Assembly: GCA_031285685.1 (NCBI GenBank)
Contig: JAITVS010000261.1
Location: 1-48,596 of the forward strand
Origin: Tannerella sp.
Lineage (GTDB): Bacteria; Bacteroidota; Bacteroidia; Bacteroidales; Tannerellaceae
Length of the DNA stretch: 48,596 nucleotides
Reading direction: 5' to 3'
Below are positions 7,087 to 47,839 of this stretch, in pieces (the stretch's first letter is position 1; each line of letters opens with the position of its first letter). Below the pieces are notes generated by a model. That model saw nothing but the letters and a program-made list of their open reading frames with translations, did not search any database and had not been told where the DNA came from. The translations under genes and the position numbers were made by a program.

Positions 7087-7154
7087 CAAAGATATTATTC
7101 AATATTATCTGAAAATGCCTTAAAAACGAATTTGAGCCTTCAAAAAGCGTCAAT
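7087..7154 (-). promoter_or_regulatory. Promoter and operator A, copy 1 (MFS-nagA-nagB operon)
   Basis: The minus-strand -7 box TATCTTTG (7087-7094) matches the Bacteroidota consensus TAnnTTTG. Upstream of it lies operator A (7118-7154). In plus-strand notation its half-sites are CCTTAAAAACGAA (from 7118) and CCTTCAAAAAGCGTCAAT (from 7137), 19 bp apart. The second half-site begins 50 bp from the start of the -7 box, as at 22157 and 47822. The position just upstream of the -33 region suits an activator. Confidence 0.75.
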
Positions 7155-7200
7155 TATCTGTCCGCCGGATCACAATAGCTTCATGACAAGGGTGGATTTA

Positions 7201-8565
7201 CTAATCATCCGTTGTATGAAGCAGTTTCAGTTTAGTATCGTAATCGGTGTAGTGATAGTAATATCCTGTCATCCACATCACGATCGGTAATCCGTGATTT
7301 TTGCCTGATACAACGTATGGACGTACATTGTCGGATGTTGAATTATTTGTTATTGTTTTAATAACTTGATTACCGTCTTCTTTAATCGTCCGTTTTTCAA
7401 TTTCAAATCTTCCATTGATTTCCCGGGATAAGAAAACTACGTCCGGATTATTAGGGTCTAATACGATCCCTCCGGAGTAGTAATGTTCCGATAATTTCTT
7501 TCCGGGCTTAATAATAGTAATGTATTTTCCGGCATCGGCTATCTTAAATTCATTCCATTTTTCACCGTTCCATTTTGCGTAATAATACTGATGGTTTGTA
7601 TAAGAGGGATAACGGGTATAGGTGATAACCGGTCTGTTTTTCTTATCTAAAGTAATGTCCCAGATCCATGCCCTGATAGGAGTATGGTCGGTATCGTAAA
7701 CTTTATTTACTTCATTAATTTTAATCGGTATTCCCTTTTCCGGCGAGGTAATGTGGTTACCGTTTGTTTGATAAAAACCTCCTTCCTTGTAATACATGTG
7801 ATAAACAGAAATATTGTTTTCCTGTCCGGGGTGGCCATTTGTGAACAGAAAATCGATTCGGGACTTATTGTCTGAAGCGAATTTAATGTATTGACGACTA
7901 TTCATACCTAAATTATCCAGTATATTTAATTCTTCGCTCCATGTTTTGCCCAGGTCGTCACTATAAATACAATAGGTTCTCGTATCAGTATAAGTCCCTT
8001 TTGTATTTTTTACAATGTTTCGTCCGAAGAGATATATGCGATTATTTTCTTCACTTAACATAACAGGATTAACATAGCAATATCTGTTTTTGTTATCCTC
8101 TTTAAGTAAAATAATTTCATCTTCCCATTCACGAATGTTCTCTGCTGCTTTACTTTTTCTCATAAAAATATTTCTGTTATGGTGACCGTAAAAAGCCAAA
8201 AGTTTGCCGTCAGGTAAAAATAATAAGCTGGGTACGTTATGATCATCCCGTTGTAATTCTCTATGCAATGTAAATTCATCTGCTTCTTTTGTTTTCAAAT
8301 CGTAAGATTTAATCATTACGTCGCCTTTTGAATTTATATATCCAAAATAAACCGCTTCTTTTTTACTCTTTCGGTAGATGGCCCGGGGATCCGAAAACCA
8401 ACACCAGGAAGCATCCTCTGCTACGACAGGATACTTATCTTTATCCGGGAAGAGTAATTCTTCTTTCTCTTGCTGTATGTTGGCTTGTACATTTATATTC
8501 CATGGATGGAGCAACAGAAAAAATAACAAAATGATAATTTGTGTTGTCTGTTGGTTTTTCTTCAT
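7201..8565 (-). CDS. Secreted BNR_4-family beta-propeller protein
   Basis: The 454-residue product has a Sec signal (hydrophobic IIILLFFLLLHPWNI, cleavage near VQA/NIQQ) and the pattern of BNR_4 proteins: ASWCWFSDPRAIY, then GYINSKGDVMIKSYDL, then QRDDHNVPSLLFLPDGKLLAFYGHH. The family is a seven-bladed propeller found in polysaccharide lyases of the PL24/PL25 kind and in uncharacterised glycan-active proteins. A lyase or glycosidase role is therefore plausible, but the active residues cannot be assigned by eye. It is the last gene of the 22059 operon, and its ATG overlaps the preceding TAA by one base. It ends in TAG followed directly by TAA. Confidence 0.75.
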   Translation of the reverse strand: MKKNQQTTQIIILLFFLLLHPWNINVQANIQQEKEELLFPDKDKYPVVAEDASWCWFSDPRAIYRKSKKEAVYFGYINSKGDVMIKSYDLKTKEADEFTLHRELQRDDHNVPSLLFLPDGKLLAFYGHHNRNIFMRKSKAAENIREWEDEIILLKEDNKNRYCYVNPVMLSEENNRIYLFGRNIVKNTKGTYTDTRTYCIYSDDLGKTWSEELNILDNLGMNSRQYIKFASDNKSRIDFLFTNGHPGQENNISVYHMYYKEGGFYQTNGNHITSPEKGIPIKINEVNKVYDTDHTPIRAWIWDITLDKKNRPVITYTRYPSYTNHQYYYAKWNGEKWNEFKIADAGKYITIIKPGKKLSEHYYSGGIVLDPNNPDVVFLSREINGRFEIEKRTIKEDGNQVIKTITNNSTSDNVRPYVVSGKNHGLPIVMWMTGYYYHYTDYDTKLKLLHTTDD

Positions 8566-10928
8566 TATTTAAGTGTTTTTAGAAAGTCATATACTTTTTG
8601 GCGCATCGTGGTCGAAAACCGGTTATAATCATCGGGGGCATATGCTTGAATATGATCTTCCGCATTGTATAAACCATAAATTTTTTTAACCTCATGGATG
8701 CATTGCTTTATATCGTCCATGTGTGCATCTTTATCGCGAAGAGGTGTTATCAGCAATACCGGACGTGGTGCGATGCCGGCAATGATTTCATTAAAATCTA
8801 AGGGAATGTGGTTTTCATGTCCTGCAAAAAATCCCAACTTAGGCATGAGCCCGTGCAGATGTGAATAGTATTTAATGCCTTCGGTTCCCCTGTCTGATGT
8901 ATTTGTACGCATAGGAGTGAAACCGGCTATGGATACAACTCCTGCAGTTCTGTCGTCCAATGCTGCAGAAAAGAGTCCTACCGTTCCGCCTAAGGAATAG
9001 CCCACAACAAAAATTTTTGAACTATCTGCAAAATCCAGGTTAGACATGGCGTCTACCGCTCCCTTAACATCTGCGACCATTTTCCCCATTTTCGACCAAT
9101 GAGGATAACGTTCATAAAAGTAGGAACCCTCTTCCATTCTATTTCCAAAACCAATCATATCGAACGCAAATACGCCGAATCCCATGTGAGTCAGATTCGT
9201 AAACACGGATTGAATCTCATGATCAAACTTCATCGAAGAAAATCCTTTGGAATAATCGTACTCGTGTAAATAAATGACGATCGGGAGATTTTTATTTTTC
9301 ATTTCACCTGTTTCGTCTACAGGATAATACAGATATCCGAATAAATTGTCGCCGAATCCACTATAGGGGGTAATCGCCATTACTTTCATGGATCTGGTTT
9401 CGTGGGGACGGATCAGGAAAGAGCCGAACCGTTCTTCTCCCATCCCTCCGTTTTTCAGACTTTCAGGGCCTGGATTTGTGACTCCTGCCGGTTCTTTCCC
9501 TAATAGCCAACGGATATGGTGTTTGATTTCTGTTTTTTTATGATCCCAAATGTTCAGGGAGATGCGCTTGTTCTTTTTATCCGAAGCCAATCCGTGCTCT
9601 TTCGGTTCGTAGTCTGACGGATTTATTTGTTCTCCGCTTAACTCACGCCACCGGTCAAACGTATAATGACAGAATAACCTGTTTTCGGGTTGCCGGTCGG
9701 TTCTCCCGAATATATAATCGAAGAAATCTATGTAAATCTCTATATCTTTTGCATTTACACCGTGTACGCCGTAACGCGAAGCTATCGCCAGATTATTTTC
9801 GGCATTTAAAAACCGATAGACTGTTTGGGCCGAATGGAAAGCTTGTTCTATGCCGAATATATTGCTTGCCGGTTCGGTTACTGCGGTACTCAACATTAAT
9901 CCCCGGGGAGCAATCAGGGACATGAAGGAGTGCTGATCGACGGGTAACTTTTGTTCCCGGCCGATAAAAAACCTTAATCTCGGGTGTAACCAGGCGGGTT
10001 GGGCGCAGGAGAGAAGTGCAATGTCTTCCACATCATATTTCTGTGTATTATAACGCCAGGGGACTTCGGCGCCGCTACCCCCACTACTGGGAATACAGGC
10101 GCTTATCCGGTTATCGAACGCCGCTGCCATCAGCGACGTCTTTCCATTTCTGGAATGGCCGGTGATACCGATTTTTTTTTTATCTACATAAGGCAGTGTG
10201 TATAAATAATCGATTGCCCGGGAAGCGCCGTATGCCCGTCTCATCAACCGTGTAAAGTCGTATTGTCCGGCCCAGATTCCGGAATAGGCTTCTGTGTCAT
10301 CTTTCGAATCCGCACCGGCATATAAGCAACCGATATAACCTCTTCTGACAGCGATGCGTGCCCAGTCCCGGTGTGTCCAATTGGTTAAAAAAACCGGAAA
10401 TGTTCCTTCTCCCGGCGGAATCATTATTTCGACGGTCAGTTTTGCCTGATGGCCAGGACCAAAAAATAATTCAACGGTTCGGATAGTCACTTCACCATCT
10501 TTTATTTCGGACCGTATCTCCGATTTCAAGTTATCCGGAATGGGAGGAATGGTTCCGGTGATATAATGAGCCAGTTCCTTCTTCATCCGTTCTTTTTGTA
10601 TTTCCCATTGGTTCTCGGATATGACAGGTATGTTTTTTCCACCCTCATCTATCATCAGGGGATCCGGTAAGAACGGAATGGAAGGCATGTTGTCAAAATC
10701 CGGCGGCAGTTCTCCGGTTCGTTGAAGCCAATCCTGGAACGTCTCGTCCAGATAAGAAACTCTTCCACTGGAAGTTCTGTCGGGGGGTAACACAGATAAT
10801 ATCCACTCTAATTCGGCTGTTCTTTTCAGCGAATCTGAATGGAGATCCTTATCGGATGTTTGTTCCGGATACACTTGTAAGGAAAGGAATAATAATATTA
10901 ATAATGAAATGCTTTTTAGATTTCTCAT
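8565..10928 (-). CDS. Two-domain secreted esterase: CE15-like domain plus second alpha/beta hydrolase
   Basis: The 787-residue protein has a Sec signal and two alpha/beta-hydrolase domains. Domain 1 (about 85-410) resembles CE15 glucuronoyl esterases: GITGHSRNGKTSLMAAAFD with Ser259, then SSGGSGAEVPWRYN and a late His in YGVHGVNAKD. Domain 2 (about 500-787) has IVIYLHEYDYS, the nucleophile elbow VVGYSLGGTVG (Ser645), an Asp region TPLRDKDAHMDD and a late His in EDHIQAYAPDD, like acetyl-xylan esterases. CE15 enzymes cut esters of glucuronic acid, so the protein may remove two kinds of ester from one glycan. Both nucleophile Ser residues are present. It sits 14 nt after the DUF1080 gene and ends in TAA. 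Confidence 0.72.
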   Translation of the reverse strand: MRNLKSISLLILLFLSLQVYPEQTSDKDLHSDSLKRTAELEWILSVLPPDRTSSGRVSYLDETFQDWLQRTGELPPDFDNMPSIPFLPDPLMIDEGGKNIPVISENQWEIQKERMKKELAHYITGTIPPIPDNLKSEIRSEIKDGEVTIRTVELFFGPGHQAKLTVEIMIPPGEGTFPVFLTNWTHRDWARIAVRRGYIGCLYAGADSKDDTEAYSGIWAGQYDFTRLMRRAYGASRAIDYLYTLPYVDKKKIGITGHSRNGKTSLMAAAFDNRISACIPSSGGSGAEVPWRYNTQKYDVEDIALLSCAQPAWLHPRLRFFIGREQKLPVDQHSFMSLIAPRGLMLSTAVTEPASNIFGIEQAFHSAQTVYRFLNAENNLAIASRYGVHGVNAKDIEIYIDFFDYIFGRTDRQPENRLFCHYTFDRWRELSGEQINPSDYEPKEHGLASDKKNKRISLNIWDHKKTEIKHHIRWLLGKEPAGVTNPGPESLKNGGMGEERFGSFLIRPHETRSMKVMAITPYSGFGDNLFGYLYYPVDETGEMKNKNLPIVIYLHEYDYSKGFSSMKFDHEIQSVFTNLTHMGFGVFAFDMIGFGNRMEEGSYFYERYPHWSKMGKMVADVKGAVDAMSNLDFADSSKIFVVGYSLGGTVGLFSAALDDRTAGVVSIAGFTPMRTNTSDRGTEGIKYYSHLHGLMPKLGFFAGHENHIPLDFNEIIAGIAPRPVLLITPLRDKDAHMDDIKQCIHEVKKIYGLYNAEDHIQAYAPDDYNRFSTTMRQKVYDFLKTLK

Positions 10929-10942
10929 ATTCGTGTGATCTA

Positions 10943-11689
10943 TTATAATTCTCTTATCATAATTTTTCTATAGTGTATCTGGTCTCCATGGTCTTGCAGC
11001 AGTATCCGGCCATTTCTTTTTTTTCCGAAATCGTCATAATTTTTAAATTTGGTTTCCTGTACCAATTTACGAAATTCTTCCGAGTCGGAATCTATACTTA
11101 ACACCAGTTTCCCATTCAACCAATGTTCTATTCTACTTCCCTGCACTTTGATTTTCATTGAGTTCCAGGTGCCTAAAGGTTTCAGTCTTTTATCCTTTTC
11201 CGGAGCATATAATAAATATAAGGCAGCTGTAGAGCCTTTTTCATTGTTAAACCCCCGTATTTCATCCTGATGAAAATCATCGATGAGCTGGTATTCAAAT
11301 CCGATCCATTCCGTTTTACCGTTTGTCTTATTTTTCATTTGCTGAACGAAATATTTCACTCCGGAATTGACAAGCCTTGTCATCTTGAATTCCAATTTTA
11401 ACTCAAAATCGGAATATGTTTTGCGCGTAATAATATCACCCCCTTTGTTTCCGGAAAGTAAAACCAGTTCTTTCTTTTTAATTTGCCAGCCTTCATCTGG
11501 AAATGATGTGCCCCGGGTGCTTATCCAATGTATTGTATCTTTGACGGTGCTGAAAAGCGGTTGCCAACGACTATGATCAACAAGATCTTTGTTATCTGCC
11601 CTTTTAGGATCAGAGGCATTCACTGTTGTGATCTGAATGCAAAAGCAGTGAATGATTACAGCGGAAAAAAACTTACAGATTAAACTCAT
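10943..11689 (-). CDS. DUF1080 protein (3-keto-glycoside hydrolase type)
   Basis: The 248-residue protein has a Sec signal and a concanavalin-like DUF1080 fold, now described in Pfam as 3-keto-disaccharide hydrolase. Supporting stretches are GGDIITRKTYSDFELKLEF, NSGVKYFVQQ, WIGFEYQLIDDFH and GTWNSMKIKVQGSRIEHWLNG. Characterised family members cut glycosides whose sugar has first been oxidised at C3 by a Gfo/Idh/MocA dehydrogenase. Several predicted exported Gfo/Idh/MocA proteins are encoded in this window, one in the same operon (20713-22059), so such a pairing is likely here; the substrate is unknown. Some members may only bind carbohydrate. It lies 63 nt after the propeller gene and ends in TAA. 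Confidence 0.8.
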   Translation of the reverse strand: MSLICKFFSAVIIHCFCIQITTVNASDPKRADNKDLVDHSRWQPLFSTVKDTIHWISTRGTSFPDEGWQIKKKELVLLSGNKGGDIITRKTYSDFELKLEFKMTRLVNSGVKYFVQQMKNKTNGKTEWIGFEYQLIDDFHQDEIRGFNNEKGSTAALYLLYAPEKDKRLKPLGTWNSMKIKVQGSRIEHWLNGKLVLSIDSDSEEFRKLVQETKFKNYDDFGKKRNGRILLQDHGDQIHYRKIMIREL

Positions 11690-11752
11690 AAATAAAAACG
11701 GATTAATTTTTTACTAAAAAAGACAATTATTCAGTGGTGTGTATTTAAATAG

Positions 11753-14113
11753 TCATGGCATAAAGTCATCTTCAGACGCTAATTTCCAACTCTTTCCTTC
11801 GTCGGAAGACATGATTAAAACTCTGTCCGAAAACTTTCTGTCAGTTCTGTAGAACCAATAGGTCGACCAATAATCGTAAGAAATAAATAGCCGTCCCTTG
11901 CGATCAATGGTTAAACGATGACGAAAATTACTGTAATGGGATAACGGTGCCTGTACTAATATCTGTGGTTCCGACCATGGTTGACCTGGTTTTTTAGACA
12001 TATATGCCAATCTCGCATAATGGGTATCCGGGAAAGGCTCCTTATTGTGTTGCCAGAATCTGAAAATAGTATGTAATGTATTTTCCTGATCGGTGACCAA
12101 ACCTAAATATGTCTGAGTCGAATGCGGTATGTTTGGGTCCAAAAGGGATTCGGCCTTTGACCAACCGTCATTGACACTTAAAGGCTGTAAGGATTTTGCA
12201 TATTGGAAAGGCCTGCCGTGTGTGCCTGTCAGAACATGCAGGAATCCCTCGCTATCCATCGTAATACCAGGAATATTATGCGTATCATTGGGTGGCGCTC
12301 CGAATCCGACGAGAACCGGTTTGTTCAGTTGTTTCGTTTTTTTATTGTATGAAGTGACGAAAACAGGCACTCCCGGTATTTCTTCTCTGCTGATGTTTAC
12401 ATCTGTGACTTCGCCCCATACCATAAATATGTTATCCTTATGGGATACAACCGATGCCGGAAGTCCCGAATGGGACGACACACCGAGGCACTTATCGGAG
12501 ATTAAAACAGGTTGTTCCCATTCGAATCCTTCGTTTGTTTTTTTGGGGATTAATAATTCAAGATTTCCATACTTTCTCCAGAAATGCTGTTTGTCAGCGC
12601 CTGTACGGGTGTATTTCATGACCGGAGGCGGACCATCCGGTATGTTATGACCCGTAAATTGTTCGATATCGAAACCGGTTCCGGCGGTTGCGTTTGGAAT
12701 AATAAACGACTTGAAAGAGATACCGTTGTCTGTAGAATGTAATAGAACCGTCTGATTGTTTTCATGGCCTAATACATACACATCACCTTCCGAATCAAAA
12801 GCAACAATTGAACCCTGAAGTCTATTCACGGGTGTTTCATACCATCGGTTGTTTTGGAAAGAGAATATGCCATTTTCAGATAATATATACGGTTTATTGT
12901 CAATATTGAAGTAAGGCTGATTCGTGGCAGGGTAATCGGGTGAATAACCGAATTGTTCGTTTTCATGAAAATAAGGTTTAAGGACAATCGGCATTTTTAA
13001 AGGAGAGTCCGTGTTGGAATCTTGCGTTTTAACATACAATGTAGCATAAGTTGTAAATTCTTCATCTGTTGCTCGCAGATGTACCGATCGGTCTGTACTA
13101 TCTCCTTTCCAGCTTAATGTTACCTTTTTTTCTTCATTTGGCTGAAGAAGAACCTCATCATGCGACAGACGTACATCCCAGCGATTTTCGGGAAACTCTA
13201 ATGTAAATTTAACTTTTTTGGGTTTTGTTCCATTATTATGTACTTTGAATGAAGCTGATTTTTGTTCCTCCGGATGCTCATAAGTAGTACGGCTATAGGG
13301 CGTTAATAACCAGCGATTATCGTGGAAACGAAACCAACTCGGCGTCCAAAGTGCTCCGTCGGGATATGTAGAGAAATCATCTGATTGATCATTCGCATCC
13401 CAACGGGTCACGCCCTCTATTTTTATTTCTGCCTGCGCCTTGGAAAAATGTAATTTCCAGGGGATCGAATGTCTTTTTCCCTCTTCTACGTGATAACGGG
13501 CCGTATCATTGAGAACTTCCAGTAATCCAATAGGTTGATCTTTTGCATCTTTCAGTCCGATCGTTTTTATGTCATCGGAAAGGTGGGTTATCAGAATGTC
13601 GAACTCATTTCGTTGAGGCAGAAAGCATAAATCGGTTTCTTTTTCCGGATCGGCCAGTATAATCGGCTCTTCATGATATTGATCTTTGTGCCCTCTTGAG
13701 GTTTCTATGATATATTTATCACAATTTGTTTTGAATCTCCAGGCGATATTTTCGCCATAACGATCATTGGAGACTGTGATCATTATGGCATAGACACCCG
13801 GTCTGTCAACCTGGGTCTCCAGACGCAGTACATTCTTGATTTCATTGTTTTCCGAAGCGGAAGTATTGATATCCTGTATCATTTTCCGGTCCGGACCAAC
13901 GAAAACAGCGCGTAGTATCCTTGAAAGGGAATCGTTTTTCAGATCTGTTTTTTCAATTTCTATGATTAATGGTCCTTTCTGTGCATTTAAAAAAATGCCG
14001 CCGCACCCACTTATTTTAGGAGTCCAGTCTCCTAATTGCTTTGCTTCCGGCGATCTGCATGAGGTATATAACCCTAGCGTTACTGAAAAAACAACAACAA
14101 ATATAAATCTCAT
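11753..14113 (-). CDS. Large lipoprotein with N-terminal beta domains and C-terminal BNR-type propeller
   Basis: The 786-residue product has a lipoprotein signal (LGLYTSC/RSPE), about 350 residues of beta-rich sequence and then a propeller with Asp-box-like repeats (VLLHSTDNGISF, LIMSSDEGKSW). The segment NDTHNIPGITMDSEGFLHV, followed by TGTHGRPFQYAKS, matches the BNR_4 pattern of His-Asn and His-Gly-Arg-Pro residues around the propeller axis in PL24/PL25-related proteins. It is probably an outer-membrane-anchored glycan-binding or glycan-cleaving protein; lyase activity is possible but not shown. Its neighbours are the DUF1080 gene (63 nt downstream) and the surface lipoprotein gene ending at 14258 (144 nt upstream). 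It ends in TGA. Confidence 0.65.
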   Translation of the reverse strand: MRFIFVVVFSVTLGLYTSCRSPEAKQLGDWTPKISGCGGIFLNAQKGPLIIEIEKTDLKNDSLSRILRAVFVGPDRKMIQDINTSASENNEIKNVLRLETQVDRPGVYAIMITVSNDRYGENIAWRFKTNCDKYIIETSRGHKDQYHEEPIILADPEKETDLCFLPQRNEFDILITHLSDDIKTIGLKDAKDQPIGLLEVLNDTARYHVEEGKRHSIPWKLHFSKAQAEIKIEGVTRWDANDQSDDFSTYPDGALWTPSWFRFHDNRWLLTPYSRTTYEHPEEQKSASFKVHNNGTKPKKVKFTLEFPENRWDVRLSHDEVLLQPNEEKKVTLSWKGDSTDRSVHLRATDEEFTTYATLYVKTQDSNTDSPLKMPIVLKPYFHENEQFGYSPDYPATNQPYFNIDNKPYILSENGIFSFQNNRWYETPVNRLQGSIVAFDSEGDVYVLGHENNQTVLLHSTDNGISFKSFIIPNATAGTGFDIEQFTGHNIPDGPPPVMKYTRTGADKQHFWRKYGNLELLIPKKTNEGFEWEQPVLISDKCLGVSSHSGLPASVVSHKDNIFMVWGEVTDVNISREEIPGVPVFVTSYNKKTKQLNKPVLVGFGAPPNDTHNIPGITMDSEGFLHVLTGTHGRPFQYAKSLQPLSVNDGWSKAESLLDPNIPHSTQTYLGLVTDQENTLHTIFRFWQHNKEPFPDTHYARLAYMSKKPGQPWSEPQILVQAPLSHYSNFRHRLTIDRKGRLFISYDYWSTYWFYRTDRKFSDRVLIMSSDEGKSWKLASEDDFMP

Positions 14114-14257
14114 AAAATAATCTCCTATTCCTTTTTTTGTGAATAATATTAAAAATAATCATTCTTGGACCCATTCCGCAGAGGACTTTGATTTCATCGT
14201 GTCATCTATGGATTGCAAGCACTATCCGGATTGGATTCAATATCAAATCATTTGTTT

Positions 14258-15235
14258 TTACATCGTATATCTTTTCATACTGACGGTCATCGTTTTCGTA
14301 GCATCATTAACATTATTGATGTAGATATAGGCACGATACTTCTTATCTGACGTTTCCACCCAGATTCCGTATTCCGCTCTTAAATCGATGGCGTAATTCG
14401 GGGCGTCGGAGATATTGAGCTTTTCAAAATCGGGATCATCAACATATACTCCGTATTGCAAACCGGCCAAATGCCGATCCGCCAAATTATACGCCTTCTG
14501 TATTTTCGTCGAATTATTGTTGGGAACCTCTTTTCCCTGTAAAAATTCGGCATTCGTACCGGGCGCTACTAACGCATGGTTAAAGCTTATGCCCGAAATA
14601 ACTTTGTATAAATAAACCAAATCTATTTTATTTGCTTTTGATATGGCTTCCGTTTTGTCATAAGCAGCCATATCTGCGATTGAAAAATAACATTTGCCTT
14701 CATCCGACAACACAATGTCTCTTTTCATATCCATTTTTGTTATTTGGTAAGGTCCCATTTCATAAGACACTTTTTCTCCTGTGCTTGCCGTCGAGGAAAA
14801 CCTGAAGCTGACCCACTTGCCTTTCGCACTTTCCGGGATGATATAATAATACCTGAGTGTCGCTGCACATGTGTCTTTCGTAAATGTTATTTTTGTTGAA
14901 TTACCGACCGTAGCAGACGGTTCAGCGATGGTAATACCGATATCGATCCCCCCATCATCGGTATGAAAGGAACGATGTTCTAAAAATGTTCCGTTGTCAC
15001 CGGGTATTGACGCTTCCACTTCGGCGGAAATAATCCTGCCTCTGCCATAGCCTAAAGCCATCGCGTAAGCAAATTCCAGATCTAATCCCACGATATTGGG
15101 CCCTAACGACCTTTTAATGCAATCATTCTGAAATTGGGTGTTTGTTTCCGGTATGGTATACTCCTTGTCGCAAGCTGTCAGGAGGCAACTTAAGCAAGCG
15201 ATCGATAAACAGATGTTATAAAATTTTGCATGCAT
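14258..15235 (-). CDS. SusD-associated surface lipoprotein, DUF4466-like
   Basis: The 325-residue protein has a lipoprotein signal (LSCLLTAC/DKEYTIPE) and an acidic stretch after Cys22 that may act as a lipoprotein export signal to the cell surface. The segment GLDLEFAYAMALGYGRGRI and the later ATVGNSTKITFTKDTCAATLRYY resemble DUF4466-type lipoproteins found next to SusD genes; I rate this family call as tentative. The likely role is glycan binding beside the SusC/SusD pair. It follows the small lipoprotein gene by 4 nt and ends in TAA. No enzymatic motif is visible. Confidence 0.6.
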   Translation of the reverse strand: MHAKFYNICLSIACLSCLLTACDKEYTIPETNTQFQNDCIKRSLGPNIVGLDLEFAYAMALGYGRGRIISAEVEASIPGDNGTFLEHRSFHTDDGGIDIGITIAEPSATVGNSTKITFTKDTCAATLRYYYIIPESAKGKWVSFRFSSTASTGEKVSYEMGPYQITKMDMKRDIVLSDEGKCYFSIADMAAYDKTEAISKANKIDLVYLYKVISGISFNHALVAPGTNAEFLQGKEVPNNNSTKIQKAYNLADRHLAGLQYGVYVDDPDFEKLNISDAPNYAIDLRAEYGIWVETSDKKYRAYIYINNVNDATKTMTVSMKRYTM

Positions 15236-15239
15236 AATA

Positions 15240-15641
15240 TCAAGGATTTAATTGTTGAACGGATATATTAACGGTATAAACTTTTTTCACTTTCCGGTTA
15301 CCGGAAATAACCGTCCACTGCTTCGGTGAATTTAAGTCGGAAAAATCAGTCCATCCCGTTATCTTCGGATCTAATTTGGCATCCGTTACTAATGTAAATT
15401 GCGGCCATAATTTGGCTAAATTTGTTCCCCAGCGGACTTCAACATCAATGGTTTGGGCCAGTGTATCAATTACCGGGTTTTTCGTCCTTACTGTCTGGTG
15501 ATCCGTATTTAATAATTCAAAATTACTGACATAACATTCTTCGCGTTCTGTTATTAATAGTCCGTCTTCGTCGATCGGGTAATTAAAACAACCCTGTAAG
15601 CCGGCAAATATTAATAGTATTAAGATACTGTATTTTTTCAT
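15240..15641 (-). CDS. Small lipoprotein with DUF5018-like domain
   Basis: The 133-residue product has a lipoprotein signal (IFAGLQGC/FNYPIDEDG) and one small beta domain. The pattern (VIDTLAQTIDVEVRWGTNL, PKITGWTDFSD, VYTVNISVQ) resembles the repeated Ig-like DUF5018 units of surface lipoproteins beside SusD; the name is tentative. It lies between the interrupted susD (27 nt) and the DUF4466-like gene (4 nt), in the position usually taken by surface glycan-binding proteins. It ends in TGA. No catalytic motif is visible. Confidence 0.6.
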   Translation of the reverse strand: MKKYSILILLIFAGLQGCFNYPIDEDGLLITEREECYVSNFELLNTDHQTVRTKNPVIDTLAQTIDVEVRWGTNLAKLWPQFTLVTDAKLDPKITGWTDFSDLNSPKQWTVISGNRKVKKVYTVNISVQQLNP

Positions 15642-15668
15642 AGATTGTTTTTTATGGGATTATTATTT

Positions 15669-17507: not shown

Positions 17508-17519
17508 ATTTTTATTTGT

Positions 17520-20618: not shown

Positions 20619-20712
20619 AAGCTAACAATTTAAATTTTTCATAGTATTTGAGATTTTGGTAAAAAAAAATCAGAATAAGATTGACAATATTATCGCCATT
20701 TGATCTTTCTGA

Positions 20713-34489: not shown

Positions 34490-34507
34490 AATATGATGTA
34501 TTGTAAT

Positions 34508-37750: not shown

Positions 37751-37929
37751 GTCTGTAAATAAAAAATTATCCATAAATTATCAGATTTAATAGTTAACTG
37801 GCTTTTTAATTATGAAAAAAGAACGGAATCTGGTTTTTCTTTGGGTTTAAGGTATTGCATCTGTGTCATAGGCATTACATTTATAATTGATTTATTTTCC
37901 GCTTAACGATCCTGATCTGTTTCGTATTA

Positions 37930-38026
37930 CAAATATATAATTAGGTGTGACCTGAAGTTATTTCATTTTGCGTATAATGACCTTCAATAGACGTCAAGGT
38001 TATTTTTTATCCAAAAAACGTCAATT
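37930..38026 (-). promoter_or_regulatory. Promoter and operator A, copy 3 (37750 susCD operon), with an extra half-site
   Basis: The minus-strand -7 box TATATTTG (37930-37937) matches TAnnTTTG. The main half-site CCTTCAATAGACGTCAAG starts at 37981, 51 bp from the box, nearly the spacing of the other copies. A weaker partner keeping only the TGCGTAT core lies about 19 bp below it. An additional half-site CCAAAAAACGTCAAT starts at 38011. This copy is the most diverged and may bind differently. Confidence 0.65.
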
Positions 38027-39924: not shown

Positions 39925-42900
39925 TAAAAAGTTAATTTAAATCCTACACTATATACTTTATTCAGAGGCCATAAGGTGCTATTACTTCTCTCGGGATCAA
40001 ATCCTTTTGGTAATTTTGTGAGGGTGAATAAATTCATGCCTGATATATAAACATTCAGTTCCTTTATACCTATTTTATGGATCATATTTTTAGGAATGGA
40101 ATACCCGACTTCCATGCTTTTCAGTCTCAGGTAATTGCCTTTACGCAAAAAGAAAGTATTAGCCTGTTCGGACCAGTAAACCCGTCCTCCTCTTGCCAGT
40201 ATAGCAGCTCTTGGCATCGACGCATTCGTATTATTTTCTTCTGTCCATCTGTTTTCTGTAATAAATTTATAATAATTTGATTCCGGTGATCCCGTTATCA
40301 GAGTTAGATAATAATCGTATCCGGCTGCACCTTGGAAAAAGATAGATGTGTAAAAATTCTTATACGCCAAATTGATGTTTAATCCTCCGAAATATTTAGG
40401 AACGGAACTGTTCTTACTTCGAACCTGATCGAGGCCATCTATTTTTCCGTCTTTATTATAATCTTCAAAAATGATATCTCCCGGCTTAGCCGAAGGTAGA
40501 TGGGGATAAGAATCGATATGAGCCTGATCTCTGAAAAATCCGATTGCCTGATAATATAATCCGGCGCCGATCGGACGTCCGGTCGATTTTCTATAATCTT
40601 CCACATTCGGAGTTTCATCCCAGAAGATTATTTTATTTGTAGCAAAAGAAAGGTTCGGAGCAATAGAATAGGAAAAATCCCCGATCGTATGATTGTAACT
40701 TAACTGAATTTCAAATCCCTGGTTTTTGACTTTTCCTATATTTTCACGAGGTAATGTCAGTCCTGTGGAGAGAGGAACAGAGGCATTCCGATATTCCAGG
40801 ATCTTTTTACGAAGATTATGAAAATACTCTACCGTCAGCGAAAATCTTCCATGAAACATCTGCATGTCGATTCCTATATTTGTCTGATTGGCAACTTCCC
40901 ATGTGATTTCTTCGTAAGGAATACGAAGTTCTTTTAATGTAGTTGTTTCTTCGTTTATATTAAAAATATACTTATTTTTCCAATCGGTTCTGAATCCGTA
41001 TGTTGCCAGATATTGATAAGGAGAAATCCGGTCGTTTCCTGTTTGTCCCCAGGAACCTCTCAGCTTAAGATAGGTCACGGGATTATTTTCTTTCCAGAAT
41101 TTTTCTCCTGAAACAATCCATCCCAATGAAACTCCCGGGAAAAATCCGAACCGGTAATCTTTTTGAAATATATAAGAACCGTCATACCTGAAAACAAATT
41201 CAGCCAGGTACTTTGACATATAATTATAATTGACTCTTCCGAAATAATTCAGTCGCGCGCTTTGGCTTGCCGAACCGCCATTATCTTTTTCAAAATCTCC
41301 CCCGGCAAATAACTGGTCTATTTCCTGAGAAGGAAAATATTTACGGCTTGCATTGAAGTTCATATTATCTGATGTAGACTTTTCCACACCGACTAAAGCG
41401 CTTACAGTGTGATCCTTGAATGTATTATTGTAATTTATCAGGCCGTTCAATGTTATCGAACCTGCATCAGCCATGCTTTGAGTTAATTCAGGTTGTTTTA
41501 CTCCGTGTTTTGTTTTAATTAGTTGAGGTTCATTGTTCTCATTGTAGCCACCCCAATAATATAAATAATAAGGTATACTCCATTTTTTATTATTGTTAAA
41601 GGTTTTATCAACAGCAAGATTGCCGCTAAGTGTCAAACCTCTGATAAAAGGTATATTGATATCCAGTTTTAAAAGCCCTCCAAACACATACGATTTAAAC
41701 TTATCGTATCCCATGTCTTTAGAAGAAGAAACAACGGGATTCAGATCAGATTCTACTCCCGGACCGGGCAATCCGTTCGGCCAGCGAGCCGGCATATTAG
41801 GACGGCTTTGAACGACTAACTGATTGGAATAAAGCGGATTATACATATCTGCCGGACGATTTGTAATCGATTGTCTTCCGGATAAATCAAAATTTATTTT
41901 TATATTCTCCGATATCTTTCCGTCAATGTTACTTCGGAAGTTAATCTGAGAATAGTTGTTACCGCTGTTGCGATGAATACCTTCCTGATAATTGGCTCCT
42001 AATGAAATAAAATATTTGAATCTTTCCATACCTCCTATTACGGATACATTTCCGTAAGTTTCAGGACTTAATGGCTTGTAAACCGCATCGTACCAGTCGG
42101 TTTCAGGATATAACTAGGGATCTCTGTCTTTATTTTCCTTATATATACTGAGCACTTCGTCCGAATAAGTAGGTGACATCCCGCTGTAATGGTTTTCTTC
42201 ATTTATCATCGACATATAGGTGTATGCATCAGCCATTTCAGGAAGACTGGTCGGTCTGCTCCAGCCTTGATTTAAAGTGAATGTAACTTTGGCATTTCCC
42301 GCTTCTCCTCTTTTTGTTGTAATCAGGATGACCCCATTTGCTGCCTGTGCACCGTAAATGGCTGCAGAAGCATCTTTCAAAACGGTAATAGACTCAATGT
42401 CCACAGGGTCCAATCGTGATAAGTTTCTGTTTGCGATCCCATCGACCACGATCAGAGGGCTATTATTCCCTGTCGTATTTACGCCTCTTATTCGTATCGT
42501 AGGGTCATCTTCTCCGGGAACAGAACTGGTCTGTACCGTACTTAATCCGGGAATTTTTCCGGTCAGGCGGTTTGTCATATTAATGGCTGGCGTCATCTGC
42601 AAGTCTTTTCCTTTGACAGATGATACGGCGCCTGTCAGGGTTGCTTTCTTTTGTGTGCCGTAACCTACCACTACTACTTCGTCAAGCAATTCTGTATCGG
42701 ATAGTAAAACTACATCTATCCGGGTTCTATTATTGACGGGAACCGTTTGCGTTTTCATTCCCACATAACTGAATTTCAACGATGCATTTGGAGGAACATT
42801 ATTCAATGTATAATTCCCGTCAACATCAGTAATCGTGCCTTGACTTTCCTGATTTTCTACGGTTACGGTTACTCCTATCATTATTTCACCTATATCATCT

Positions 42901-43010
42901 GTTACCTTCCCTTTGATCGTAACGTTTTGAGATACGGCAATCATGGATATGAATAATATTATAGTTGATAATATAATTTTATTTCTGATTGACAATTTCG
43001 ATATTTTCAT
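39924..43010 (-). pseudogene. SusC/RagA-family outer-membrane transporter interrupted by an in-frame TAG
   Basis: One frame of 1028 codons is interrupted only by TAG at 42114-42116, after residue 298. I placed the start at ATG 43010 (MKISKLSIRNKIILSTIILF, a signal peptide). The N-terminal part has the regulatory-like domain (TIKGKVTDDIGEIMIGVTV), plug start LLDEVVVVGYGTQKKATLTG and GAQAANGVILITTKRGE. Past the TAG the frame runs straight on as LYPETDWYDAVYKPLSPET, the usual SusC continuation, to the family end NKVYSVGFKLTF. SusC proteins have a variable residue before LYP, so the original codon is not clear. Without suppression only the plug would be made. The downstream SusD is intact and overlaps by one base. 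It ends in TAA. Confidence 0.9.
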
Positions 43011-43101
43011 TCTTTTTATATTAAAATTGTTATAGAACTTTTTCTTATATAATAAGTAGGTGTAAAGATGATATCTTTTAACGATCAGGCTCCCTTTTTG
43101 C

Positions 43102-44508
43102 TTATAGCGTCCATGGCTTCCTGTATTCGTAAGACAAATAGCGATTCGCTTCGTCGGAATTGGTGAATCGTTCATTGACAGCATCCCATACGAGTCTTTG
43201 ACGTGTTTGCATGGCAATTGTACCCAAATGTGCCAATGTTGTGGAGCGATGTCCTATCTCCAATGTCGCCCACGGCTCGTTTCTGGATTTTACACAATCC
43301 AGAAAATTGCGTATCAGACTGAAAGCGCTGTTTTTGTAACTGCCGTCAATCAGGAGTTTGTCGTCTTTATTGAGAGAATAATCTTCTTTTTCTATCATGG
43401 GCTTCCATGTCTGGAACTGTCCGGCAGTTGTCGGCGTAATCCGGTAATCGTTCTCTCCGGTATGCAAAGTCCCTTTTGTCCCTCTGAACTCCAGAAATCC
43501 GTGAGGGATAAAACTTCCTGAACTGGCTTCAAGAATACTTAGCGTAACCAGCACTCCCGATTTAAATTCATAGGTAACATGCATGGTGTCGGGAATTGTA
43601 CGATCGTCATCGACAATGTATTTGCCTCCATGTGCGCTCACTGCCGTAGGAGCTTCTTCATTCAGCAACCACCGGAGCAGGTCCAGATAATGTACCCCGT
43701 TATTGGATATCTGATTGGCATAATCTTCCCACCAACGGAACATATAAGGCGCAATGTTGTATTGATAGGGTCTGTAACCCCTGGGTCCTAACCACATATC
43801 CCAATCGAAATCAGCCGGCGGTGTCTCAGGCTTCAACTTTCCGATACCGTTCGGAAACATGTTACTTACATGACAAGCGGAGGCAAACGTAATCTTTCCG
43901 ATTTTTCCCGACGGGATATCTTTGGCTAATTTCTGAAAAGTCGGCGCTCCCCGTCTGTTCAGTCCGACAGTGATAATCTGTTTGCTGTTATTTCCGATTT
44001 CGACCATCTTCCGCCCTTCAGCAATCGTTTTGGATAATGGTTTTTCGACAAAGACATCCTTTCCTGCCTTGATCGCATCAATTGTCTGCAAAGCATGCCA
44101 ATGATCGGGCGTTGCGATACAAACGGCGTCTATATCTTTGTTTTCCAGCATTTTCCGGTAATCGGTATATTGCTTGACCTGTTTGGAAAAATTCTCACCC
44201 ATTTTAGGAATCCTGGATCCCATGTCTTTAATATAACGCGGCAGAACGGTCGTATAATTGCGGGTGGTATAAGGCTTATACACATCGCATAGTGTGGCTA
44301 CTTCACAATCGGGTTGTTCCATAAACAGATGCAGAAGTTGCGAGCCCCGGTTGCCGACGCCGATAAACCCTACCCGAACCTTATCGTTGGCTCCGATAAT
44401 TCGTTTGTTTACATCGATAAAGGGAAAACCTGAAGAGGTCAATGATAGTCCTGCAACTGCAAGGGATGTTTTTTTTATAAAATCTCTACGTGTAGTTTGT
44501 GTTTTCAT
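43102..44508 (-). CDS. Gfo/Idh/MocA-family oxidoreductase with Tat signal
   Basis: The 468-residue protein begins with a twin-arginine signal (TTRRDFIKKTSLAVAGLSL). The Rossmann part starts at KVRVGFIGVGNRGSQLL, followed by IATPDHWHALQTIDAI and FVEKPLSKT with the catalytic-type Lys156. The C-terminal domain has NQISNNGVHYLDLLRWLL. It is intact and more distant from the 20713 and 46404 paralogues than those are from each other. It is the first gene of the operon with the TAG-interrupted SusC, 91 nt upstream of that start. Its promoter is probably the one near 44905, which carries element B instead of operator A, so it may answer another regulator. It ends in TAA. Confidence 0.85.
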   Translation of the reverse strand: MKTQTTRRDFIKKTSLAVAGLSLTSSGFPFIDVNKRIIGANDKVRVGFIGVGNRGSQLLHLFMEQPDCEVATLCDVYKPYTTRNYTTVLPRYIKDMGSRIPKMGENFSKQVKQYTDYRKMLENKDIDAVCIATPDHWHALQTIDAIKAGKDVFVEKPLSKTIAEGRKMVEIGNNSKQIITVGLNRRGAPTFQKLAKDIPSGKIGKITFASACHVSNMFPNGIGKLKPETPPADFDWDMWLGPRGYRPYQYNIAPYMFRWWEDYANQISNNGVHYLDLLRWLLNEEAPTAVSAHGGKYIVDDDRTIPDTMHVTYEFKSGVLVTLSILEASSGSFIPHGFLEFRGTKGTLHTGENDYRITPTTAGQFQTWKPMIEKEDYSLNKDDKLLIDGSYKNSAFSLIRNFLDCVKSRNEPWATLEIGHRSTTLAHLGTIAMQTRQRLVWDAVNERFTNSDEANRYLSYEYRKPWTL

Positions 44509-44570
44509 AAGTTTGTATATTTAATGATAAATAGCATTTAACTCCGGGAAATCCGTTTTTTTCATTGGTT

Positions 44571-44813
44571 TCAGGTTTTTACGTCCGGTTCTTTACCGGC
44601 AGATCTGTTTGTCAAAATACAGATAAAAAGAGGGAGACCTCCTGAATATATAGTAAAAACAGGTGTCTGTAATCCGGATAACAGGTCTTTTAAGGAACTC
44701 TCAGAATTCGACACGATGGTCGCTTGGATAATCTGATTTTCTGAACGGACAATGGATAGATTATTTTTGTGGTAAGTGTTTATAATGTGCGCTTTAGAAT
44801 AAATAAGAGACAT
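44571..44813 (-). CDS. Doubtful small open reading frame in the leader
   Basis: An 80-codon frame starting MSLIYSKAHIINTYHKNNL lies between promoter element B copy 2 and the 44508 gene. I do not recognise it: no signal peptide, no motif, one modestly hydrophobic stretch (FTIYSGGLPLFICIL). It would be transcribed from the promoter near 44905, about 90 nt before its ATG. It may be a leader peptide, a decayed remnant or chance; chance is most likely. Confidence 0.2.
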   Translation of the reverse strand: MSLIYSKAHIINTYHKNNLSIVRSENQIIQATIVSNSESSLKDLLSGLQTPVFTIYSGGLPLFICILTNRSAGKEPDVKT

Positions 44814-44904
44814 TAGACTCAGTATTTATCCGGATTTAGAGAATGTTGGCCAAATCATTATACTATCAGTATACAAAATCTTATTTAAGAGGTTGCATCA
44901 GTTA

Positions 44905-44969
44905 CAAAAATACAATGAACTCATTGTTTACATATCTCCATTTGCGAATGATTATACTCAAAATGCGAA
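44905..44969 (-). promoter_or_regulatory. Promoter with element B, copy 2 (44508 operon)
   Basis: A minus-strand -7 box TATTTTTG (44905-44912) lies 20 bp from a 38-bp element (44932-44969) with two TTCGCA repeats 21 bp apart around GAGTATAAT. Box, spacing and element match copy 1 at 214-278 (34 of 38 positions in the element). It is the only recognisable promoter ahead of the oxidoreductase-susC-susD operon that starts at 44508, about 400 nt downstream. Confidence 0.6.
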
Positions 44970-45039: not shown

Positions 45040-46188
45040 TTATTTCAAAATCCATTCGAAAAAAGCATATAGTAATTCGTTTGATTCGGCATTGGGACTG
45101 TGTTCCGGACGGTTGGTCATAGCGACCTTGCTTTTATATCCCAGCAGATCGTTGACGGCAATGGTGTGATTCAACGGAATCCAGCGGTCAATCGGATCGG
45201 AGGAACCTCCGGAGACAAGAAACGGACGAGGAGCCATCAATGCATGTAATTCATGTAGATCATATCCTTCTTTGCGTAATTTGGGATATAATCCTTTTGC
45301 ATTTTCACCGGTTTTACTCCAGGTATCTTTCCATGGTGGCGGATAATATCCTAAGTACCATGGTTCCCAGTAATTTACGCCCGAACCTTTTGTCTCATCG
45401 AAAACAATGCCGGGGTCAGCCCAGGCAGCGCAGGCGAATTTATCGTACAGGCAGGATGCAAACATCGCCCATTTACCGCCATAGGAGTGTCCGACAATAC
45501 CAATTTTTGTAGAATCAACATCACTGACCTTAGCCAATACTTCCCATGCATTGGCGGCTGCATAAGCCAATGCCGATAAAGGCTGTACGGACGCGTTGTC
45601 AATATCTGGGTAATAGATTGAATAAGTTCTGTTTTCTGTTGTTTCGGAAGTCCCTATCGATAAGGTTACAAACCCTCTTTTAGTAAGCTGATATGCGAAA
45701 TCCCGATAAGGTTTACCTCCGATTCCCACTGCTGTTTCAGGTTCGTAGAAAACAGTAATTACCGCAGGTTTTTTTCCTTTTTTATCCGGGATCAACAGAT
45801 AACCTTCCGTTTGTTGATTGGGTGTCCAATAGAACTGTATACGATGTTGCGTAAAGTTTTCACGATGGGTTGTTTCCATTATTTCAAACTTTTGTCCTTT
45901 GATAATCGGAGGCCATTCGCCCATTAATGACATCCACTTGTAGCGAATCTCTTCTCTTCTTTTCTGCCAATCCGGCTTTGTCCGTACCGTTTCCCCATTA
46001 TAAAATTTTAATGGAGAACGATAGTCTCCATATTGATTCTTAAATTCTTCAGGCGGATCAAAATAAGCTTCTATTTTATTCCACGTATCGCTTTTATCGG
46101 TGTTATTCCGATCAGAAAATTGTGATGAAACATTTTCGAAAATAGGCGGAAAAAACAATATTATGAGATAATAGAATTGTGTTTTCAT
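45040..46188 (-). CDS. Secreted alpha/beta hydrolase, acetyl-xylan-esterase-like
   Basis: The 382-residue protein has a Sec signal (YYLIILFFPPIFENVSS) and an alpha/beta-hydrolase domain with the nucleophile elbow GIVGHSYGGKWAMFASCLYD. A likely Asp lies in GGSSDPIDRWIPL and a likely His in NRPEHSPNAESNELL, so the triad looks complete. The segment WADPGIVFDETKGSGVNYWEPWYLG is typical of secreted esterases from polysaccharide loci. It probably removes acetyl or another ester group from the glycan in the periplasm. It lies 215 nt after the Gfo/Idh/MocA gene and probably shares its promoter, as no other box is evident in that gap. It ends in TAA. Confidence 0.72.
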   Translation of the reverse strand: MKTQFYYLIILFFPPIFENVSSQFSDRNNTDKSDTWNKIEAYFDPPEEFKNQYGDYRSPLKFYNGETVRTKPDWQKRREEIRYKWMSLMGEWPPIIKGQKFEIMETTHRENFTQHRIQFYWTPNQQTEGYLLIPDKKGKKPAVITVFYEPETAVGIGGKPYRDFAYQLTKRGFVTLSIGTSETTENRTYSIYYPDIDNASVQPLSALAYAAANAWEVLAKVSDVDSTKIGIVGHSYGGKWAMFASCLYDKFACAAWADPGIVFDETKGSGVNYWEPWYLGYYPPPWKDTWSKTGENAKGLYPKLRKEGYDLHELHALMAPRPFLVSGGSSDPIDRWIPLNHTIAVNDLLGYKSKVAMTNRPEHSPNAESNELLYAFFEWILK

Positions 46189-46403
46189 ACAGAGCTTTAA
46201 TAGGTGGTATTATGATTTTTTCAGCCTCATTGAATCCTTTTCCGATGGGAATTGACAGGCTTTATGTTCTACTTCTCAATTTCCTCGTGTATCCGGAGAT
46301 GCGTTTTACACTACTCTCAATTGTTTTTGAACCATATAAATAAGCTGTTGTGACGTTAAACTCCTGCGGCCCGGATAAAGATTTTCGCCGTTTAACAGAT
46401 TGA

Positions 46404-47744
46404 TTATAACTTCATTTCCCAACCGGGTTCATAATCACGACTCCATAGTTTCATGGCTTCCTGATCGTTTAATATGCGTCCGTTCTTCTCATCGATGCAC
46501 AATGAACGTCCCATTCGCTGGGATATATTTCCTAACTGTACAAGTAATGTGCTTTTGTGCCCGGAAACAATATCAGAATTGAGTGTTTCATTTTTTTTGA
46601 TCGCATCGAAAAAGTTATTGATATGTATAGCATCCAGGCTTTCAGCCGGGTTCATCAGGTTACGCGGATCGATTGTTATTTTACTGTTTTGTTCTTTAAT
46701 TACTGTATTATCCAGACTGAAAATTTTATATCCGTCGCTGCCTGTAATCAAAAGACTTCCTTTATCACCGTAAAACATGCTGCCGACGCTACTGCTTTCT
46801 ATATGTCGTCCATTACAGCTCCTGCCTTCCCATGTCATGGAGAATTTATTGCCAAACTCCATATTGATAACTTGCGTATCAGGTGTTTCCCAGTCGTCGT
46901 CGGCAAAATAACGCCCTCCGACGGAGTTAACCATTGTCGGATAATCCGCACCCATACCCCAACGAAGAATATCGACCATGTGTGTTCCGTTATTTAAAGC
47001 TTCGCCTGTTCCCCAACGCCAGAACCAATGCCAGTTATAATGTACCACATTGTCTCTGTAGGGTACGCGTGGAGCAGGACCCTGCCATAAATTCCAATCC
47101 AGCCATTCCGGAACCGTTGTTTCTTTACCGATACCGATCGGTTTCCGGTTGTTGGTGTACCAGGATTTGCCAAAATGTACATTTCCGATAACGCCTTCTT
47201 TCAGCGCCAGGATCCCTTCCTGTACATTTGGCCATGAGCGGCGTTGGTTTCCCATCTGTATAACCCGTTTGTATTTTTCAGCCGCTTGAATCAGGATTTC
47301 ACCTTCGGCGGGGGCATAGCTGCATGGCTTTTCCAGATAAACGTCTTTGCCCGCCTGCATGGCCATTAATGCTGCGGGTGCATGCCAATGGTCCGGTGTT
47401 GCAATGATAAATGCATCCGTATCTTTTGTCTCAAGTACTTTGCGTATATCTTTTTCTCCTTTTGGCTTGTAACCCATGGCTTTCTCTATGGATGATACAC
47501 ATTTGGTAATAGCTCTTGAGTCTACATCGCAAACGCGCGTTATTTCACACCGGGGTTGTTTTGAGAAATTGGTGGCTAAAGCTGTTCCTCTTGCATTTAC
47601 ACCAATAACTCCTACCCTTATTTTATCATTGGCTCCAATGATGTTCGCATAACTTTTTGCGCTCATTCCGGGAATAACACCTCCCACAGAAAAGGCTGCT
47701 GTCCCGATAGCTGCTTGCTTGATAAAATCTCGTCTGGTTGTCAT
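46404..47744 (-). CDS. Gfo/Idh/MocA-family oxidoreductase with Tat signal
   Basis: The 446-residue protein has a twin-arginine signal (MTTRRDFIKQAAIGT), a Rossmann start (KIRVGVIGVNARGTALA), IATPDHWHAPAALMAM and the catalytic lysine in YLEKPCSY (Lys139). The C-terminal domain carries YNWHWFWRWGTGEALNNG. It is close to 20713-22059 over its whole length, so one is probably a duplicate of the other; both follow operator A directly. The role is likely NAD(P)-dependent sugar oxidation or keto-intermediate chemistry in the periplasm. The ATG lies 28 nt below the -7-like box of operator A copy 4. It ends in TAA. Confidence 0.86.
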   Translation of the reverse strand: MTTRRDFIKQAAIGTAAFSVGGVIPGMSAKSYANIIGANDKIRVGVIGVNARGTALATNFSKQPRCEITRVCDVDSRAITKCVSSIEKAMGYKPKGEKDIRKVLETKDTDAFIIATPDHWHAPAALMAMQAGKDVYLEKPCSYAPAEGEILIQAAEKYKRVIQMGNQRRSWPNVQEGILALKEGVIGNVHFGKSWYTNNRKPIGIGKETTVPEWLDWNLWQGPAPRVPYRDNVVHYNWHWFWRWGTGEALNNGTHMVDILRWGMGADYPTMVNSVGGRYFADDDWETPDTQVINMEFGNKFSMTWEGRSCNGRHIESSSVGSMFYGDKGSLLITGSDGYKIFSLDNTVIKEQNSKITIDPRNLMNPAESLDAIHINNFFDAIKKNETLNSDIVSGHKSTLLVQLGNISQRMGRSLCIDEKNGRILNDQEAMKLWSRDYEPGWEMKL

Positions 47745-47771
47745 GATATTGATTTATACGGTTTGTTGATG

Positions 47772-47839
47772 CAAATATGTCGTCAATTTTGAAAAAATAA
47801 CTCCCTAAATACGAAACAAAACCTTCAAAAAACGTCAAT
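47772..47839 (-). promoter_or_regulatory. Promoter and operator A, copy 4 (46404-47744 operon)
   Basis: Operator A (47803-47839) has half-sites CCCTAAATACGAA and CCTTCAAAAAACGTCAAT, starting at 47803 and 47822, 19 bp apart. A -7-like box (CATATTTG on the minus strand, 47772-47779, one mismatch to TAnnTTTG) lies 50 bp from the second half-site. The operator overlaps the last 15 bases of the regulator gene ending at 47825, which suggests that this regulator is the one that binds it. Confidence 0.7.

Follow-up and report, generated by a model that had tools for sequence, protein, structure and literature searches.

The stretch of DNA considered here, hereafter the window, is an entire contig of a Tannerella sp. 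genome (48,596 bases; contig C168 of G000, a 5.58 Mb assembly in 423 contigs). It holds an island of NagP-NagA-NagB, susCD, oxidoreductase, and esterase genes, all on the minus strand, together with the 3′ part of a gene for a XylR-like regulator and four copies of a 21-bp direct repeat, S1 to S4, which we regard with considerable confidence, from the sequence comparisons below, as putative operators of that regulator, whose gene ends at 47825. On the transcribed strand, on which the sites are described, the half-site of this class A repeat reads ATTGACGYTTTTTGAAGG (CCTTCAAAAARCGTCAAT on the forward strand), and the forward form was found with 0 mismatches at 7137–7154, 22157–22174, and 47822–47839 and with 3 mismatches at 37981–37998, in agreement with a preliminary description of this DNA that had placed four half-sites there, one of them diverged. 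An extra half-site with 3 mismatches lies 27 bp above S3 (38008–38025, minus strand), and it brings the number of window matches at up to 3 mismatches to five, against 0.21 expected from shuffles. As had been described, each of the four copies precedes the first gene of an operon. S1 (7117–7154) heads the nagP-nagA-nagB operon, which starts at 6967 with a NagP-like transporter of the major facilitator superfamily (MFS); S2 (22137–22174) heads a Gfo/Idh-SusC-SusD...BNR operon starting at 22059 with the Gfo/Idh gene; S3 (37961–37998), the diverged copy, heads a second SusC-SusD operon starting at 37774 with SusC; and S4 (47802–47839) heads a Gfo/Idh-esterase operon starting at 47744 with the Gfo/Idh gene (all on the minus strand). 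A second half-site 19 bp below the first, reported earlier for three of the copies, was recovered with 0 mismatches to CCYTAAAWRCGAA in S1 and S2 and with 2 mismatches to the searched pattern TTCGYTTTTAAGG in S4; searched alone, it occurs at about the chance level (43 matches, 39 expected).

Each site is followed on the minus strand by a −7 box close to the TAnnTTTG-type consensus (PMC7366714). With offsets reckoned along the transcribed strand from where the half-site begins, the boxes of S1 (TATCTTTG, 7087–7094), S2 (TAATTTTA, 22107–22114), and S4 (CATATTTG, 47772–47779) lie at offset 60 and that of S3 (TATATTTG, 37930–37937) at offset 61, with the S2 and S4 boxes keeping 5 of the 6 fixed letters. 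Counted edge to edge, the distances of S1 to S4 are 50, 50, 51, and 50, the same values as in the preliminary description. A genome-wide search added a fifth site, S5, on another contig (C330:572–589, one mismatch to the half-site), which precedes a Gfo/Idh gene starting at 673, has TATATTTG at offset 61, and is divergent from a gene whose product starts MIKILLLTDFSSEYS and leaves the contig at its start. We compared the five sites without gaps, since MAFFT put gaps into the long flanked alignment. The first half-site is invariant at TTGACG, one T, and TTGAAG, and the second at T and CG, with a CG-to-CG spacing of 21 bp; S3 and S5 have an otherwise poor second half-site, yet retain the CG at 21 bp. 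That chance, or a recent DNA duplication carrying the repeats along with copied promoters, produced these sites has a probability close to negligible. It is true that S1 and S2 are alike beyond the half-site, and that the S2 Gfo/Idh protein shares 58% identity with the G009 orthologue of its S4 counterpart, but the flanks of the five sites differ while the half-site, the 21-bp CG, and the −7 offset stay, other families of the phylum preserve the architecture (see below), and chance would account for 0.21 half-site matches where 5 were found.

The regulator gene is cut by the contig end, with its 3′ part at 47825–48596 (minus strand; Peripla_BP_3 and AraC HTH_18) and its 5′ part at C330:2–406. 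Compared to the intact orthologue in genome G009 (395 amino acids), C330 encodes residues 1–135 (94% identity) and C168 residues 140–395 (92% identity), and the two contigs therefore very probably abut inside this gene, with about four residues missing between them. The regulator gene thus lies between two operators, with S5 situated at the 5′ end and S4 overlapping the stop codon and encoding the final residues IDVF-stop; the overlap of S4 with the 3′ end of the regulator gene had been noted before, and the G009 orthologue keeps it. The G009 orthologue matches E. coli XylR (PDB 4FE4) over its full length (residues 3–379 to 7–385, E = 5.6e-45), and, judged on this intact protein, the regulator has the layout of the XylR family, with a Peripla_BP_3-type sensor followed by an AraC domain and no N-terminal helix-turn-helix (HTH) domain. 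Its closest homologues in named records are found in metagenome-assembled genomes (MAGs) of Tannerella sp.; MAGs of this sort come from termite or cockroach guts.

To scan genomes for the sites we used a sequence-only model of 40 positions built from the five G000 sites, which G000 matches by construction; up to 150 candidates were scored per genome, corresponding in G000 to 150 of 1866. The five sites obtained E values from 1.5e-8 to 6.2e-6 (S2, 1.5e-8; S4, 5.0e-8; S1, 1.8e-7; S3, 6.2e-6) and the next best candidate 0.178, which bears out the expectation that sites are confined to the island; a multitude of matches within coding regions, the outcome that had been named as telling against a regulon, did not occur with the model. 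The half-site places in the genome with at most one mismatch number four, all of them in this island. A degenerate whole-genome pattern with 2 mismatches was discarded in favour of the 40-bp model, as it proved too loose (340 matches, 293 in the reversed control). Among 41 genomes of the genus, 12 have a model site at E ≤ 0.01 and 10 have a regulator homologue with at least 50% identity, and a site was found in 9 of the 10 genomes with the regulator compared to 3 of the 31 without it (Fisher 5.7e-6); the 50% threshold was chosen after the identities had been seen, and adding G012 (41%) gives 9 of 11 and 3 of 30. The model match in G002 lies inside an open frame and lacks a box at the expected spacing, and leaving it out changes the count to 8 of 10 (about 7e-5, calculated by hand); this genome has another phase-locked site beside its regulator (L092:10671–10708) that the model scan did not list.

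We then examined 80 homologue loci with 42–100% identity, obtained by scanning named genomes and representing the top 80 among at least 535 relatives; some are near-copies (L133/L134, L142/L143) or come from one genome (L123, L147, L149, L153), and the counts are not independent events. A matrix trained on 27 genus sites, without use of the −7 box, gave 52 matches of at least 16 bits in these loci, compared to an average of 0.33 in the Markov controls; training sites account for 9 of the 52 (L104 three, L107 and L116 two each, L105 and L126 one each). Full TAnnTTTG boxes at these matches fell at offsets 59 (7 cases), 60 (24), 61 (3), and 44 (1). We also searched for the architecture as a pattern, CG N6 GA N11 CG N31–33 T[AT]nnTTTG, whose fixed letters are present by construction. 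This yielded 67 matches in the 1.195 Mb of the 80 loci, compared to 1, 3, 0, 0, and 2 in five Markov controls, and these counts are lower bounds, given that the pattern skips imperfect boxes (of the window sites it recovers S1, S3, and both copies of a second repeat class described below, and misses S2 and S4). Of the 80 loci, 42 have a site no more than 400 bp from the regulator gene, and in 37 of these it immediately follows the 3′ end of the gene, on the same strand. Tests free of the training data were made on the 73 loci outside the training set, with seven Tannerella loci left out: 46 first-half-site matches had CG at the 21-bp position in 31 cases, compared to 5 at the next offset, and of the T[AT]nnTTTG boxes 27 stood at offset 59 or 60 and 3 at other offsets. 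The sites thus recur beside XylR homologues in other genera with the −7 spacing kept, as the preliminary description had anticipated. One further record among the loci, L120, is labelled Anaerolineaceae (Chloroflexota) and carries a Proteiniphilum-like regulator, operator, and NagP-like gene; it is probably a case of binning contamination.

The spacing to the −7 box also bears on the direction of control. Columns 34–59 of 48 aligned offset-60 sites, between the second half-site and the −7 box, are nearly uninformative, and in these alignments a −33 element is not visible, with only slight A/T preferences of at most 0.44 bits. This is the layout of AraC-type class II activators, namely a fixed helical phase (offsets 59–61) and no visible upstream promoter element, and it would be consistent with activation. 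The preliminary description had assigned the operators to a position of the −50 type; the fixed phase holds, while the position itself is amended to a predicted range of about −71 to −34, abutting the −33 region, when reckoned from the −7 box. The sensor domain of the regulator is LacI/PurR-like, and the sites could in principle be repressor operators from which the protein is freed when ligand binds to this domain. We consider this quite improbable, since the sites do not span the −7 box and start but are placed upstream of both, in fixed helical phase and with no conserved −33 element, which is an activator layout; moreover, XylRA of gammaproteobacteria is an activator whose predicted motif consists of two AT-rich direct repeats like XylR sites, and E. 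coli XylR is also called an activator in the same source (PMC12125979).

Several findings weigh against the sites themselves, against their assignment to the XylR-like regulator, or against the function proposed for it here. The half-site alone, allowing 3 mismatches, occurs at 18 places in the genome and at 22 in the reversed control, and a half-site search is for this reason informative only at its best places or through the longer model. The −7 boxes of S2 and S4 are imperfect. In the genus, three genomes (G024, G052, and G011) have a site with no regulator found and one (G004) has a regulator with no site found, several of the assemblies being incomplete. No site of the architecture form lies within 400 bp of the regulator in 38 of the 80 loci, of which 23 fall in a 27-row branch with Cytophagales and 15 elsewhere; some of these 15, L104 and L105 among them, do carry a site with an imperfect box, as the matrix shows. 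Operator similarity tracks the sensor domain and the DNA-binding domain alike (Mantel 0.58 and 0.51), with partial Mantel values of 0.10 for the HTH domain (p 0.04) and 0.32 for the sensor. Because operator similarity tracks the sensor domain too, these correlations speak for co-inheritance and not for recognition by the HTH domain; a recognition code for this domain, whose partial signal is weak and below that of the sensor, is not claimed. With regard to the ligand, the XylR-type regulators described to date sense xylose. E. coli XylR is one such case. XylRA is another (PMC12125979).

Given these points, we weighed whether the operators belong to another AraC-type regulator, for example a hybrid two-component system (HTCS) protein, with the XylR-like gene a mere neighbour. 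The genome has 39 matches to the regulator fragment, so that other AraC-type proteins exist, and the HTCS motifs of Bacteroides thetaiotaomicron have an average spacing of 21 bp (PMC3878776). On the other side, the architecture has 0 matches in 23 loci of more distant matches, nearly all with the AraC domain alone (71,631 bases), compared to 50 matches in 325,353 bases around the 80 regulators and the site near the gene in 42 of 80 XylR-like loci, although the strength of this contrast is reduced by the control loci spanning only 1.5 kb either side. In one control locus among the 23, L042, the match is to the sensor part rather than the AraC domain, and the label HTCS was for some of them taken from frame length. 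Site and XylR-like regulator co-occur across the genus, and no HTCS was found among the window proteins scanned against Pfam. An owner of this other kind is therefore improbable, and the XylR-like regulator is retained as the protein to which the operators most likely answer. Of the earlier proposal that one activator governs four operons from these sites, the link to a XylR-like regulator is strengthened by co-inheritance, and the number of sites rises from four to five.

To investigate which genes stand under these sites, we took the next open frame of at least 150 amino acids behind each of the 67 architecture matches, one of which had none within 500 bases. The 66 frames include 19 MFS transporters, 16 SusC-type receptors (Plug), 6 Gfo/Idh proteins, 5 ROK proteins, 4 amidohydrolases, and 3 glucosamine-6-phosphate isomerases. 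Of the 48 loci that have a site, 30 have a NagA or NagB homologue nearby, compared to 3 of the 32 that lack a site, and on the regulator tree this character requires 11 changes compared to a shuffled mean of 25.5, being clustered without forming a single clade. The regulator is followed by the operator and then by NagP-like MFS, NagA, and NagB in Petrimonas, Proteiniphilum, Paludibacter, and others, and S1 heads the same NagP-NagA-NagB trio in the window. Among the Pfam-scanned window proteins there are no xylose isomerase or xylulokinase families, and the core targets are NagP, NagA, and NagB in place of the xylose genes controlled in E. coli. We read the amino-sugar genes as the likely conserved core of the regulon, and the susCD, Gfo/Idh, 3-keto-disaccharide hydrolase, and esterase operons behind S2 to S4 as probable lineage additions. 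We lean slightly towards a ligand of the amino-sugar type, a suggestion drawn from the gene neighbours.

Taken together, these observations suggest a mechanism in which a dimer of the regulator would bind two tandem half-sites on the same face of the DNA, spaced by 21 bp or two helical turns. The dimer would cover about −71 to −34, placing its proximal subunit where polymerase would meet a −33 element, and with a sugar ligand bound, most likely an amino sugar or a derivative of the N-acetylglucosamine type, it would recruit polymerase with the Bacteroidota primary sigma factor to TAnnTTTG in the manner of class II activation. Five units would be switched on, namely NagP-NagA-NagB with its companions at S1, the susCD/oxidoreductase/esterase genes at S2 and S3, the Gfo/Idh-esterase pair at S4, and the Gfo/Idh gene at S5.

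Among described systems, E. coli XylR (PDB 4FE4/4FE7) shares full-length homology with the regulator, which differs from it and from XylRA in its operator sequence, in a Bacteroidota promoter with a −7 box, and in its targets, which are NagA/NagB, susCD, and oxidoreductases. Regulation of polysaccharide utilisation loci (PULs) in Bacteroidota has mostly been described through HTCS and SusR-like systems. Sigma/anti-sigma systems are also among the described PUL regulators of this phylum. The HTCS regulons of B. thetaiotaomicron share with the present case a DNA-binding domain of the AraC type and, before polysaccharide-utilisation operons, direct repeats with a mean spacing of 21 bp, but an HTCS is a two-component sensor in one protein, whereas the regulator here is a one-component LacI-AraC fusion, and a fixed distance to the −7 box, as found here, is not described in the part of that source available to us (PMC3878776). 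The nearest functional counterpart described in B. thetaiotaomicron is NanR (BT0433), which is listed for sialic acid and N-acetylglucosamine use and belongs to the unrelated ROK family; XylR of this species (BT0791) shares the name alone, being a member of the NrtR family, unrelated, and not a LacI-AraC fusion (PMC3878776). In the accessible portions of the open-access literature, including PMC11253607, PMC12596196, and PMC5583593 and with RegPrecise outside its scope, we found neither a description of this operator nor an XylR-type regulator of amino-sugar genes in Bacteroidota, which is weak evidence of absence in both cases. We regard as evenly balanced the broader proposition that Bacteroidota share a widespread, undescribed class of one-component XylR-type activators with a rigid code, CG N6 GA N11 CG followed by 32 ± 1 bases to the −7 box, which would ancestrally have served amino-sugar catabolism (NagP-NagA-NagB) and been repeatedly extended to susCD and 3-keto-sugar operons, with two operator classes meeting in this island and one copy lying inside the stop codon of the regulator. 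A one-component regulator of the XylR type whose operator code is readable from raw sequence would make regulon, ligand class, and promoter geometry testable in many uncultured gut bacteria, and would also supply a compact inducible promoter part. The tie that it makes between amino-sugar use and both susCD pairs and 3-keto-sugar oxidoreductases would be a hint at the substrate.

The second operator class, class B, is the 21-bp direct repeat TTCGCANNNNGAGTATAATNATTCGCAAATNGAGATAT, which has a TTCGCA half-site and TATTTTTG at offset 60. Its upper copy (44932–44969, minus strand; TATTTTTG at 44905–44912) lies above a Gfo/Idh-SusC-SusD operon at 38125–44508 that has no class A site directly above it, and the distance from this copy to the start codon is unusually long, about 420–460 bases, the interval 44509–44931 being without a clear gene. 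The second copy (241–278, minus strand; TATTTTTG at 214–221) stands before an open frame that runs from about 20 and leaves the contig. The genome holds no copies other than these two, which both lie in the window; a search of 41 genus genomes returned only them, and the repeat was absent at up to 3 mismatches from the other 122 of 123 family genomes searched. By eye, class B is similar to sites that accompany XylR-like genes in Lentimicrobiaceae and in a related MAG (L159, L164). The preliminary description had tied the whole island into one response, and for the operons headed by class A sites at S1 to S4 this remains the likely reading; because the operon at 38125–44508 is headed by a class B site in place of class A, the island is probably not a single response. 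It appears fairly probable that only part of the island forms one regulon, and that class B, with the same architecture around a different half-site, is under another regulator, in which case two signals would act on the island. This would add to the assignment of class A to the XylR-like regulator without contradicting it, and what tells against it is that a partner regulator for class B was not found. The only full-length paralogue located (C1:7329–8570) was considered as its owner and set aside, since the 20-kb stretch read around it has no class B site.

The gene content of the class A operons, whose extents are predicted, is as follows (all on the minus strand). Behind S1, the trio at 3584–6967 comprises the NagP-like MFS transporter (5618–6967), NagA (4374–5564), and NagB (3584–4393); NagA scores above its curated cut-off, and NagP is the best model for the transporter, which falls below the NagP cut-off. 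The putative remainder of this operon (334–3594) holds a Gfo/Idh gene, an enolase-superfamily protein, and a second NagB-like gene. The S2 operon would include, within 7201–22059, Gfo/Idh, SusC, SusD, DUF4466, BNR, 3-keto-disaccharide hydrolase, glucuronoyl esterase, and BNR_4 proteins, and the S3 operon, within 22314–37774, SusC, SusD, DoxX-like, DLH/esterase-like, Gfo/Idh, Nramp, a protein without a family match, DHDPS-like, and a further Gfo/Idh protein; the S4 operon (45040–47744) would consist of a Gfo/Idh and an esterase-like protein. The block 22314–44508 (about 22 kb) has no close orthologues in the stretches of G009 that were read (none at E 1e-20, or distant family members only), and there the regulator lies next to the Gfo/Idh gene of S4 and the S2-operon SusC. 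This block, which holds the most diverged class A site (S3) and has a class B site at its border, may be a gain here or a loss in G009.

Open frames of the window with no Pfam match are 24667–25689, 39924–42029, 15240–15641, 2596–3096, and 717–1130, and some such frames were named through similarity to neighbours in relatives. Four genes are present in two pieces: a SusC (39924–42029/42114–43217), the SusD of the S2 operon (15669–16967/17013–17507), and, in the S1 operon, the Gfo/Idh gene (2596–3096/3127–3594) and the second NagB-like gene (334–690/717–1130). These may be assembly errors or pseudogenes; the SusD orthologue in G009 is a single intact frame.

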